Part shown: piece after piece, positions 483 through 8,960 of the stretch
How the letters are laid out: each line of letters starts with the position of its first letter
Numbering within the stretch: the first letter of the stretch is position 1
Assembly: GCA_018266755.1 (NCBI GenBank)
Contig: JAFDZW010000006.1
Span: 186,001 to 250,000, forward strand
DNA from: Bacteroidota bacterium
Lineage (GTDB): Bacteria; Bacteroidota; Ignavibacteria; Palsa-1295
Reading direction: 5' to 3'
Length of the DNA stretch: 64,000 nucleotides
Translations under genes and position numbers: made by a program
Notes under the pieces: generated by a model
Told to the model about the DNA's origin: nothing
Databases searched by the model: none
What the model saw: only the letters and a program-made list of their open reading frames with translations

Positions 483-1843
483 CAACCGTAGATACCGCGC
501 AGACGAAGCGTACGAGCGACCTTATCGATCGCGAGAATGTACGAGCTCAGACGCAGCGACACTTTGTGCTTTTGCGAATTCTCGTACACGCGGTCGAAGG
601 CCGAAACCATCGCATCTTCGAGTCGCTTGTTGACCGTCTCGAGATCCCAGTAATAGCCCATGCGATTCTGTACCCACTCGAAGTAGCTCACCTTCACACC
701 GCCGGCATTCGCAAGAATGTCGGGGATGACCATGATGCCCTTCGATTCGAGGATCGAGTCGGCGCTGGCGCTCGTCGGGCCGTTGGCGCCTTCGACGATC
801 AGCTTCGCTTTCACGTTCGCAGCGTTGTCCTCGGTGATTCGGTCTTCGCGAGCTGCCGGCACGAGGACGTCCACGTTCAATTCGAGCAGATCTTCGTTCG
901 TGATCTTCTCTGCACCCGGAAATCCTTCGAGCAGATGACCGTGATCGTCGGACCACTTGATCGCCTTGTCGATGTCGATCCCCTTCGGATTATAGTACCC
1001 GCCGGTAACATCGGAGATCGCGAGGATCTTCGCGCCCTGATCTTCGAGCGACGCTGCGCTGATCGAGCCGACATTGCCAAAGCCTTCGACGGCAACTGTT
1101 GCCTTGGAAGGCGAAATCTTGAGCTTCTTCAGACCGCTGAGCGTCGCATGCATGACGCCACGCCCCGTTGCTTCGCGACGACCGCGGCTGCCGCCCAACA
1201 CCAATGGTTTGCCCGTAACAACACCGGGCTCGGTGCGGCGCATGTGCATCGAATACGTATCGAGAATCCAGGCCATGACCTGCTCGTTCGTATTCACGTC
1301 CGGTGCCGGGATGTCGCGCTCCGGCCCGAAAACGTCGAGCATGTTGGAGGTGTAGCGTCGGGTAATGGCTTCGATCTCGCGCTGCGAGAGCTTGCGCGGA
1401 TCGCAGCGAACGCCGCCCTTGGCGCCGCCGAACGGAATATCGATGACCGCGCACTTCCAGGTCATCCACGCGGCAAGCGCCTTCACTTCGTCGAGATCAA
1501 CATCGGGAGCATAGCGAATGCCGCCCTTCGAGGGTCCGAGAATATCGTTATGAATGACTCGATATCCTTCGAATACTTCGGTCGAGCCGTCGTCGCGAAC
1601 GATCGGGATCGAGACGATCACCGACTTTACCGGCGTCTTCAGGTACTGATAGATGCCGGGTTCGAGGTTGAGAATTTCTTGTGCTTTGTCGAACCGCCGC
1701 ATCATGGACTCGAGCGGACTCTCGTGCGGGTGAGCGGTGGCAGCGGATGTGCCTTTCACGGGAGCTGGTTCTTTGTAACTCGCCGGGTCCTCGTCGCTGA
1801 AGCGGCGTTTGCCCGAGGGTTTCACTGCGGTTTTCTTTGCCAT
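482..1843 (-). CDS. gdhA: Glutamate dehydrogenase (Glu/Leu/Phe/Val family)
   Basis: A 453-residue protein of the usual family length, with a charged N-terminal extension of about 45 residues. The dimerisation/substrate domain carries GPSKGGIRY (103-111) and the catalytic segment PFGGAKGG with Lys142. The nucleotide-binding domain has GFGNVGS and then an acidic residue after the second beta strand (AISD), which in this family often favours NAD over NADP; that preference is an inference. Known role: reversible oxidative deamination of glutamate to 2-oxoglutarate and ammonia in the cytoplasm. It lies about 106 bp downstream of a NadE-amidase-like gene on the same strand and overlaps the next secreted gene by one base. 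No clear Shine-Dalgarno is seen before the ATG at 1843. Confidence 0.95.
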   Translation of the reverse strand: MAKKTAVKPSGKRRFSDEDPASYKEPAPVKGTSAATAHPHESPLESMMRRFDKAQEILNLEPGIYQYLKTPVKSVIVSIPIVRDDGSTEVFEGYRVIHNDILGPSKGGIRYAPDVDLDEVKALAAWMTWKCAVIDIPFGGAKGGVRCDPRKLSQREIEAITRRYTSNMLDVFGPERDIPAPDVNTNEQVMAWILDTYSMHMRRTEPGVVTGKPLVLGGSRGRREATGRGVMHATLSGLKKLKISPSKATVAVEGFGNVGSISAASLEDQGAKILAISDVTGGYYNPKGIDIDKAIKWSDDHGHLLEGFPGAEKITNEDLLELNVDVLVPAAREDRITEDNAANVKAKLIVEGANGPTSASADSILESKGIMVIPDILANAGGVKVSYFEWVQNRMGYYWDLETVNKRLEDAMVSAFDRVYENSQKHKVSLRLSSYILAIDKVARTLRLRGIYG

Positions 1844-6640: not shown

Positions 6641-7288
6641 CTATTCCTCCGAAGGCTCGATCGAGCGTAACGGCTCGGGAGGTAATACACCGAAAGCCAT
6701 CGCCCGGATTATACCAAAAATGGTATCGCACTTGGACCGCAGTGCGTCCTTTGTCGAATTATTCTCTATTAGAAAGTCGGCAAACCCTTTAATTTCATCA
6801 CTATAATCTTGTTCCCTCAACCGCCGCTCGATATCCTCTGGGCTAAATTTTCCGCTTGCGACGCCTCGTTCAATGACGGACTCATCGCTTGCCCAAACCA
6901 TTACCAGTACATCGAAAAGCTCATCGTACCCCGTCTGAACCAGAATTGCAGACTCGACTGCGACGACGCTTCCGGCCGTTGCATTGGCGATACGTCGTTC
7001 CACCTCCAGCATCACTGCCGGATGAACAAGCGATTCTACCGCATGACGCTTCGATTCGTCACTAAATATCTGTGAAGCTACAAAGGATGTATTGAGTGAA
7101 CCGTCGCGATACGTATCAGGACCAAGCAGCGCAACGAGTTCTGCCCGTAGTGTCGGGTCGGAGGACATCACTTCCTTCGCGAGGGTGTCGGTATCGATCA
7201 CCTCGACTCCCTTCTCGCGCAGGACATCGGAGAAGGTGGACTTCCCGCTGCCGATTTTTCCGGTGATCCCGACTCGAAGTGCGCGCAT
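6641..7288 (-). CDS. coaE: Dephospho-CoA kinase
   Basis: A 215-residue P-loop kinase that phosphorylates dephospho-CoA in the last step of coenzyme A synthesis. The Walker A motif GKIGSGKS is at residues 10-17 after the first strand (MRALRVGITG). The family signature VIDTDTLAKEV, the VHP segment of the lid region and the conserved REQDYSDEIKGFADFLIENN near the C-terminus are all present. The frame continues upstream to 7738, but that stretch is low-quality peptide overlapping a structured RNA-like region, so I start at the ATG at 7288. It stands apart from the barrel genes downstream by about 158 bp. Confidence 0.95.
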   Translation of the reverse strand: MRALRVGITGKIGSGKSTFSDVLREKGVEVIDTDTLAKEVMSSDPTLRAELVALLGPDTYRDGSLNTSFVASQIFSDESKRHAVESLVHPAVMLEVERRIANATAGSVVAVESAILVQTGYDELFDVLVMVWASDESVIERGVASGKFSPEDIERRLREQDYSDEIKGFADFLIENNSTKDALRSKCDTIFGIIRAMAFGVLPPEPLRSIEPSEE

Positions 7289-7330
7289 TGGATAGACTGG
7301 CTGCGCCCGTGATCGGGCGAACGAAATATC

Positions 7331-7709
7331 CTCTGACAGAAGGCGGCGAGATCCGCGACAGGGACACAGCTTCGGGTAGTCACCGTTCGCCGAAGGACGC
7401 ATGCTCAAGAGCATACATGGATCGGCAGGATCCCGAACCGAAGTCTGCCGACGGTTTCCCGTCGGAACAAGGGCTAAAAGAACCGAGCCCTGATACAGTG
7501 GGCATCTGCATTTGTTACTTTTTGCTTCCACTGTCCCGCAGGTGGCGGCGCTGCAAGCAGCACGGCGCACCGGTATTGGAGTTCCGTCCTTGCGGACGGT
7601 GAGGCCTGCAATCGGTACAAATCGGATCAGTCGCCCATAGTCTATAATTGTAAGGTTCTTTTTGGCGTTGTTGACCCTATCGTTTCCTCCGCCGAACCTT
7701 CTGTCAGAG
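7331..7709 (-). ncRNA. Candidate large structured RNA of unassigned class
   Basis: The ends close on each other: 7697-7709 pairs with 7331-7343 (13 perfect bp), and after a 2-nt bulge 7690-7694 pairs with 7344-7348, enclosing ~379 nt. Inside, in minus-strand sense, are a 6-bp stem capped by GCAA (7599-7584), a 7-bp stem capped by GAAA (7465-7448), a 7-bp closing stem 7534-7528/7501-7495, and hairpins at 7561-7550, 7490-7471, 7414-7401 and 7395-7370. The two GNRA loops fix the minus strand as sense. The size fits RNase P RNA, but I see neither GAGGAAAGUC nor a CR V-like ACAGAA block. There is no T-loop or tag reading frame for tmRNA and no SRP motif. A further 7-bp hairpin lies just upstream (7712-7727). 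Promoter not identified. Confidence 0.6.
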
Positions 7710-7877
7710 TGGGTGGCCGGGGCCACCTCTCTGTACAATTAACACCTCACCTTCGCCGCGTGTTCGGGTTCGCACCGCGAAATGCCCAAATTCTCAAAAA
7801 TTTCTTCACTTCGCGTGTTGTAACATTTGGCACCGGCTTCGCGTAGGGTCAGATGATACCCGGGCCCATGCCCGAGG

Positions 7878-8960
7878 ATGTGGTGTACGTTTCACTCTCT
7901 GATCACCGACACAAAGGGACAGGTTTTGCGAATTTCGCAACCATTCAGACTCTCCAACCGGACGGCGGCTATCGCTGCTGCTTCGGTCCTTGCTGTCGCA
8001 TCGACCGCATACGCCGCTGCGAAGCTGTGGCGATATGCCGTCGACCGCGATCCGCAGCATCGTGAGAATCGAATGAACGTCATCATCAAAGCGCCCTACG
8101 GCTCCGTCGGCGTCTATGGAAACGGAGACCCGAACCTTGCCGCCATCATCGAGACGAAGGCCGACGACGAGGACGATCCGCCGCCGATGCACTACCGATA
8201 CCTGACAAGTTCTGACTACTCGATCGGTACGTTGCGCATTACCCTCGGCTCCGACGACGGAATGCTCCAGCGAAAACAAGAGCTTGCGCAAGGTACCTGG
8301 GCCAGCAACGGACGATTTACCCTCACCGGCGCCGGGACGATCCAAACCGACGGCGGCACTCACTACGTCCGCGATGTCAACGATTTTTACTCTCCCGTCC
8401 CTTCCGCCAAGAGCAGCGATGACTATTCCCGAGTCTTTTTGAACCCCACGATCCCGATCAACCTTTGGGCCGAAACCGGCTTCGGCGAGTCGGTGATCGA
8501 CATCAGCGGTCTCGCAGTTGTCGGCATGGGCATTCAGAACCAAGCGTCGAAGTCGCGTATCGTTGCCCGCACCCAGAATCGCTCGGTGATGGAGTTCTGC
8601 AATGTCAATGCAGGGCTTGGCGAATGTACGATGGACGGCATCTGCAATTACAACGTCAAGACATTCAAGTTCACCGGCGGCATTGGCTACTACGAACTCA
8701 ACTTCACGGGTACCATGCAGCGCGATCTCGACGCGAATGTTGAAGTAGGCTGCGGCAAAGTCGTCATTAATATCCCGCCCGGCGCTGCCCGAGTCCAGGC
8801 ATTTTACGACGACAATCTCTTCAGCTCCTTTTCGTTCAGCGGCCTGAACAAGCGCCGTGACGGCTACTACACCAGCGTCGGCTTCGACCAGTCCCGCGCC
8901 CCGATCCTCACCCTCCGCCTCTCGACCGGCGTAGGAAAGATGGTCGTGAGCTACCGATAA
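7878..8960 (+). CDS. Secreted protein with LiaF/toast-rack-like C-terminus
   Basis: A 360-residue protein from the ATG at 7878. A TTG at 7926, with an AAGGGA-like site upstream, would give a better signal peptide (LRISQPFRLSNRTAAIAAASVLAVASTAYA) and a mature protein of about 315 residues. The C-terminal third is beta-rich (GIGYYELNFTGTMQRDLDANVEVGCGKVVINIPPGAARVQAFYDDNLFSSFSFSGL). This resembles the repetitive toast-rack fold of DUF2154/LiaF-like and DUF4097 proteins; the assignment is a weak structural inference. Four Cys residues cluster around 240-255. Periplasmic or surface location expected. It is divergent from the RNA-like region and followed directly by a poly-C tract. Confidence 0.75.
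   Translation: MWCTFHSLITDTKGQVLRISQPFRLSNRTAAIAAASVLAVASTAYAAAKLWRYAVDRDPQHRENRMNVIIKAPYGSVGVYGNGDPNLAAIIETKADDEDDPPPMHYRYLTSSDYSIGTLRITLGSDDGMLQRKQELAQGTWASNGRFTLTGAGTIQTDGGTHYVRDVNDFYSPVPSAKSSDDYSRVFLNPTIPINLWAETGFGESVIDISGLAVVGMGIQNQASKSRIVARTQNRSVMEFCNVNAGLGECTMDGICNYNVKTFKFTGGIGYYELNFTGTMQRDLDANVEVGCGKVVINIPPGAARVQAFYDDNLFSSFSFSGLNKRRDGYYTSVGFDQSRAPILTLRLSTGVGKMVVSYR

Follow-up and report, generated by a model that had tools for sequence, protein, structure and literature searches.

An enlarged RNA upstream of coaE is very probably the 6S RNA of a family of Ignavibacteria

We propose that a large structured RNA encoded on the minus strand of the window (the whole 64,000-nt stretch of Bacteroidota DNA analysed here) is very probably the only 6S RNA (SsrS) detected in its genome, an enlarged form peculiar to one bacterial family (f1, the family of the window) that works as a promoter mimic and is released through pRNA synthesis. 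Found widely, and given in most descriptions as about 200 nt long, 6S RNA restrains RNA polymerase: it ties up the enzyme by mimicking an open promoter and is freed by pRNA synthesis. Comparison of homologues shows the window RNA to be an orthologue of the sister-family 6S RNAs (sister families being other families of the same class), with their core kept: the inner closing stem, the central bubble, and an apical arm that has a GGG/CCC base and the conserved CAGGCC/GTGGAAG region. Enlarged to about twice the usual size, and up to three times in relatives, the RNA was for that reason missed by the standard family model. Its parts are located in Table 1.

Table 1. Features of the window RNA and its surroundings (positions in the window)
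Feature	Positions	Strand	Basis
Predicted enlarged 6S (SsrS) RNA gene	7331..7727	-	Fold z = -6.1, homologues, models R1-R3; 5′ end near 7727 predicted from promoter-like box
Closing stem to closing stem	7331-7709	-	379 nt
Promoter-like box TTAATTGTA (putative)	7734..7742	-	Flank comparison
Outer closing stem P1, 5′ arm CTCTGACAGAAGG	7697..7709	-	Fold and flank comparison
Outer closing stem P1, 3′ arm CCTTCTGTCAGAG	7331..7343	-	Equivalent stem covaries in five relatives
Inner closing stem, 5′ strand AACAACGCCAAAAAGAACC	7654..7672	-	Homologue alignment and covariation; expected pRNA template, by analogy with 6S biology
Inner closing stem, 3′ strand GGTTCTTTTAGCCCTTGTT	7466..7484	-	Homologue alignment and covariation
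Central bubble, 5′ side TTACAATTATAGACTAT	7637..7653	-	Alignment to class 6S RNAs
Central bubble, 3′ side ACTGTATCAGGGCTC	7485..7499	-	Alignment to class 6S RNAs
Apical (internal) arm: GGGC/GCCC base, ATTTGT/ACAAAT, GATTGCAGGCC/GTGGAAGCAAAA	7500..7636	-	Covariation and R3 alignment
Apical hairpin 1, GCAA cap in window	7584..7599	-	Cap not conserved; stem compensated in G002
Apical hairpin 2, variable	7541..7572	-	Fold and homologue comparison
Accessory 3′ hairpin, GAAA cap, between inner and outer closing stems	7448..7465	-	Homologue comparison
Accessory 3′ arm	7365..7447	-	Main insertion relative to sister-family 6S RNAs
coaE (dephospho-CoA kinase), downstream neighbour, outside RNA	6641..7288	-	Frame and homologous loci

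Positions 7331-7709 on the minus strand form a single closed structure with a minimum free energy (MFE) of -159.9 kcal/mol, compared with a mean of -126.0 for shuffled sequences (z = -6.1), and none of 100 shuffles was equally stable. The long interrupted stem and internal hairpins of the preliminary description, including those capped by GCAA and GAAA on this strand, are thus upheld; the outer closing stem runs for 13 bp without a break and resumes past interruptions, and the MFE fold of the core has the 6S layout of closing stem, central bubble and apical arm. The plus strand folds with equal strength (z = -6.65). Because both strands fold well, strand and identity must come from comparison rather than from folding, and we assign the RNA to the minus strand because that is the strand matched by the homology models. 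The GNRA caps are not conserved: GCAA is replaced by GCAG in G002, and neither cap is present in G005. A hairpin with a different stem occupies the position of the accessory 3′ hairpin in both of these relatives. The transcript ends are predicted. A start about 18 nt beyond the 5′ arm of the outer stem, following a conserved promoter box of the TTGTA type, is probable, and the 3′ end is uncertain because a clear U tract is absent 3′ of the closing stem.

As the preliminary description stated, coaE follows directly downstream of the RNA and shares its strand; the distance between them is 43 nt. A 365-codon frame (minus strand, 6641-7738, starting from TTG) runs through the RNA into coaE. At homologous loci the coaE frame ends before the RNA, and the RNA segment is rich in indels. 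We therefore rejected a coding explanation, in agreement with the earlier view of the region as non-coding. The frame being open throughout the RNA, automatic annotation could wrongly extend coaE into the RNA gene.

At gathering scores, Rfam gave no match to a known family in 7331-7709 and, in the whole window, only a tRNA. With Rfam 15 at E <= 10, the interval 7200-7900 returned only three chance-level matches, none of them to 6S RNA. The 6S family RF00013 (gathering score 46.4 bits, a detection threshold rather than a biological definition) did not match the window RNA even at E <= 10, and its search of the whole genome was also empty. The preliminary description had excluded RNase P, tmRNA, SRP and 6S RNAs for want of their hallmarks. 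For the first three this was correct, as the genome carries them elsewhere (RF00010 at C1:602211-602593, 227 bits; RF00023 at C5:806601-807010; RF00169 at C5:1341488-1341587); for 6S RNA, which we take the element to be, it was not. Its suggestion that a known class might be present in very divergent form was apt, but neither of the classes it named holds, with RNase P RNA located elsewhere and no match to a HEARO or OrfB family in Rfam 15 at E <= 10, on which grounds an omegaRNA/HEARO element was rejected.

Homologues supplied the identification. A DNA search of 60 related genomes gave one clear relative (G002), from another genus and just upstream of coaE, and walking upstream of coaE revealed two more (G005 and G004). 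All four RNAs share the core AACAACGCnAAAAAGAACC ... CAGGCCTCAC ... GGGACAGTGGAAG ... GGTTCTTTnAGCCCTTGTT, between the blocks of which the hairpins vary freely in sequence. An exact-pattern scan of a contig database matched only the G002 record (JAUZOQ010000064.1), and no phage record matched the element. A covariance model of the core built from these four f1 RNAs (R1) matched 288 of the 391 genomes analysed from the class (E <= 0.1), with a single match in almost every one. At R1 loci, RF00013 matched the same place and strand in L059 (E = 4.5e-5) and L052 (E = 2.3e-3). Across the same 391 genomes, RF00013 matched 21 genomes at E <= 0.1, four of them above its cut-off, and wherever the listed coordinates for one genome were comparable, the two models coincided in position and strand (G364, G324, G254, G322, G224, G361 and G183). 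The sister-family loci L075-L078 exceed the RF00013 gathering score; R1 finds L076, L077 and L078, and model R2 finds L075, which was absent from its training set, at E = 1.1e-16, as well as L084, another RF00013 match. In a separate observation, L058:2585-2706 (+) gave a sub-threshold match to the Rfam RT-2 RNA (28.9 bits against a cut-off of 40).

The relationship also holds in the reverse direction. Model R3, built from 35 non-f1 sequences only (the alignment was made using R2, itself built with f1 sequences), matched window positions 7466-7672 on the minus strand with 88.4 bits and E = 2.4e-19. In a genome-wide search at E <= 10 this was its sole match (E = 1.3e-17), and no second 6S RNA was detected in this genome. 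R3 also found seven of eight other f1 loci, six at E < 1e-7 and L097 at E = 0.011. The RNA of G012 was found by sequence pattern; R2 matched it weakly (E = 0.036) and R3 was silent. As R1 finds RF00013-positive loci and R3 finds the window RNA, homology holds both ways. R2 gave no significant match to E. coli ssrS (E about 2.4 at the locus), so that it is the sister-family members that connect the f1 RNAs to distant 6S RNAs. Neither coaE nor the RNA was found in G001 and G006, probably owing to assembly gaps. In G007 and G008 (genus g3, 97-99% complete), neither R1 nor the sequence pattern detected the 6S RNA that their congeners have, and it is either lost or too divergent. A rival reading takes the closing stem as the terminal inverted repeats of a MITE-like mobile element. 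The inverted repeat is long, but the element has a single genomic copy, a core conserved across families and compensated closing-stem changes, leaving this reading with a negligible probability; single copy and orthology together refute a mobile repeat.

Covariation supports the 6S structure. In an alignment of 34 distinct non-f1 sequences, which was fitted to the tested 6S structure and leans in its favour, 94.0% of cells were paired, compared with 85.8% after shuffling. Changes on both sides occurred at 15 pairs and in 87 cells, compared with 7.7 and 28.0 in shuffles, and none of 500 shuffles reached the observed pairing or double-change values; when partner strands were slid, pairing was at most 53%. 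In the inner closing stem, eight pairs form in all 34 class sequences and five have changes on both sides. A set that included f1 gave 89.3% pairing against 82.0% shuffled (0 of 500 shuffles) in an alignment fitted to R1, the structure of which shares only the inner closing stem with the 6S pairing. The pair between ATTACAGG and GGAAGTAA (ATTGCAGG and GGAAGCAA) is either A-U or G-C, with both forms across families; within f1, it is G-C in the window and A-U in G002, G005 and G004. Among the five sequences of genus g3, six pairs of the 20-bp outer stem changed on both sides. Covariation among homologues, which the preliminary description had proposed to look for, is therefore present for the 6S rod and bubble. 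A first, hand-made core hairpin (ACAGTGG/CCCACTGT) fits most sequences but shows little variation and occupies the strand to which the 6S structure assigns GGG as partner; we dropped it in favour of the 6S pairing because the latter is backed by covariation.

The gene neighbourhood of the sister-family loci is that of a 6S RNA gene. In E. coli the gene order is zapA-ssrS-fau. Among the 35 sister-family loci, rny lies downstream in all 35 and zapA upstream in 32 (by motif), and Pfam matches to ZapA and RNase_Y_N confirmed these genes on example loci; the likeness to E. coli in having a zapA neighbour is thus confined to the sister families. Many sister genomes carry coaE about 1.6-1.8 kb downstream of the RNA. 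The order zapA, 6S RNA, rny, with coaE further on, is kept across many families (L049-L083 and other sister-family loci), and in our literature search no paper named 6S RNA along with both zapA and rny. In f1 this zapA/rny setting has been lost; coaE is still the downstream gene in four f1 genera (g1, g2, g4 and g5, comprising the genus of the window and three others), where the RNA lies directly before it, and in genus g3 the RNA is relocated and does not adjoin coaE. The position in these four genera would suit a cis-acting, riboswitch-like leader controlling coaE, in which the closing stem and a U tract form a terminator, as would the T runs that follow the closing stem in G002, G004 and G005 (and also in G010). 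We nevertheless consider a leader very unlikely, given that the RNA sits away from coaE in g3 and after zapA and before rny in the sister families, and that one core is conserved whatever gene lies downstream.

The same body of evidence speaks to whether the RNA could be a new class unrelated to 6S, having only chance motifs in common with RF00013. Its unusual size and the lack of any Rfam match in the window at E <= 10 would fit such a class, but against it stand the model homology in both directions, the coincident RF00013 matches above the gathering score, the zapA-ssrS synteny and the 6S covariation, and we regard it as extremely unlikely. Homology, synteny and covariation likewise counter the preliminary description of an uncharacterised RNA of no recognised class; that it is a real, independent structured RNA was borne out.

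Like the 6S RNAs of RF00013, the f1 RNAs have the orthologous core of inner closing stem, bubble and apical arm in one copy per genome. They differ in being 379-669 nt long rather than about 200, in carrying a long extra outer stem, accessory 3′ arms between the inner and outer stems and apical hairpins, which account for the added length, and in being invisible to RF00013. From outer stem to outer stem, the RNAs of the close relatives measure 397 (G005), 410 (G002) and 438 nt (G004), and those of genus g3 (G009, G011, G003, G012 and G010) 549-669 nt; additional 5′ material is present in g3 and G004 as well. By an equivalent measure, obtained with a simple helix finder that may err by some tens of bases for single values, the 35 sister-family loci span 189-256 nt (median 225). 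The f1 lengths thus lie outside the about 160-250 nt of a typical 6S RNA, a range that is typical rather than defining.

The kept core suggests how the window RNA would work. Transcription would start from its own Bacteroidota-type promoter: the TTGTA (or TTTGTA) box recurs 5′ of the RNA in the other f1 members examined, resembles the Bacteroidota -7 element TAnnTTTG and is what an independent Bacteroidota promoter would be expected to show. The bubble between the closing stem and the apical arm would mimic a melted promoter, and as growth slows the RNA would bind the RNA polymerase-primary sigma holoenzyme. When nutrients return, the 5′ strand of the bubble and closing stem (starting at about 7650 and running towards 7672) would template a short pRNA with a predicted start near 7650 (for example, 5′-GUAAGGUUCUUU), which would unwind the inner closing stem and release the polymerase. 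Because the window RNA carries its extra arms at the apex and 3′ within the closing stem, the template strand is uninterrupted and the cycle is probably not blocked; the arms may stabilize the RNA or bind a further partner. In Bacillus subtilis 6S RNA, the bubble and flanking helices suffice for the pRNA cycle, and complex formation does not require the terminal stem (PMC8876501). 6S RNA and pRNAs have been seen experimentally in Bacteroides thetaiotaomicron (PMC7366714), to which the likeness is one of shared phylum (Bacteroidota) rather than of sequence comparison. With the core parts kept and the additions off the template strand, the RNA most likely functions as an ordinary 6S RNA.

A 6S-derived RNA with a changed partner seems improbable by comparison. 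Its model would be Ms1 of Actinobacteria, a 6S-like RNA that binds core RNA polymerase without sigma (PMC9130861, PMC11077062) and that we liken to the window RNA by description only; Ms1 is a precedent for core-enzyme binding by a 6S-like RNA, and the f1 arms, which would make the new contacts, are large and partly conserved in g3, but f1 shows good conservation of the inner closing stem and of both strands of the central bubble, the parts used for promoter mimicry and pRNA synthesis.

Under the preferred 6S reading, a family in which the sole 6S RNA detected has two to three times the usual size implies that large additions can be accommodated in the closing stem and at the apex, and the enlarged f1 RNAs offer natural variants for asking which parts matter. 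They also expose a detection gap in the class, where RF00013 places four of 391 genomes above its cut-off (21 at E <= 0.1) and R1 finds 288 (E <= 0.1); a better RF00013 seed alignment would close it. Some of the added arms are themselves conserved. In genus g3, a hairpin of the apical insertion (L096, L099, L097 and L095; columns 319-343 of alignment A4) has a variable stem and a UUUCUUAGUUU loop that is invariant across these four species, and looks like a candidate binding site; it is absent from G010 and the window. In the 3′ arm of L085, L096, L099, L097 and L095, UCACUG(G)CAU is conserved opposite a GAUGUUU-type sequence in an internal-loop-like arrangement, of which only the UCACUG part is clear in G004 (L048). 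It is possible, if rather doubtful, that these accessory arms (the UUUCUUAGUUU loop in g3 and the UCACUG/GAUGUUU-type loop in g3 and partly in G004) form a second domain that binds another protein or RNA, which would make the 6S RNA bifunctional. The 3′ arm of the G010 6S RNA also contains a tandem repeat of about three copies of CCTCGCTGCTCTACAG (L085, near 817-1000, minus strand).
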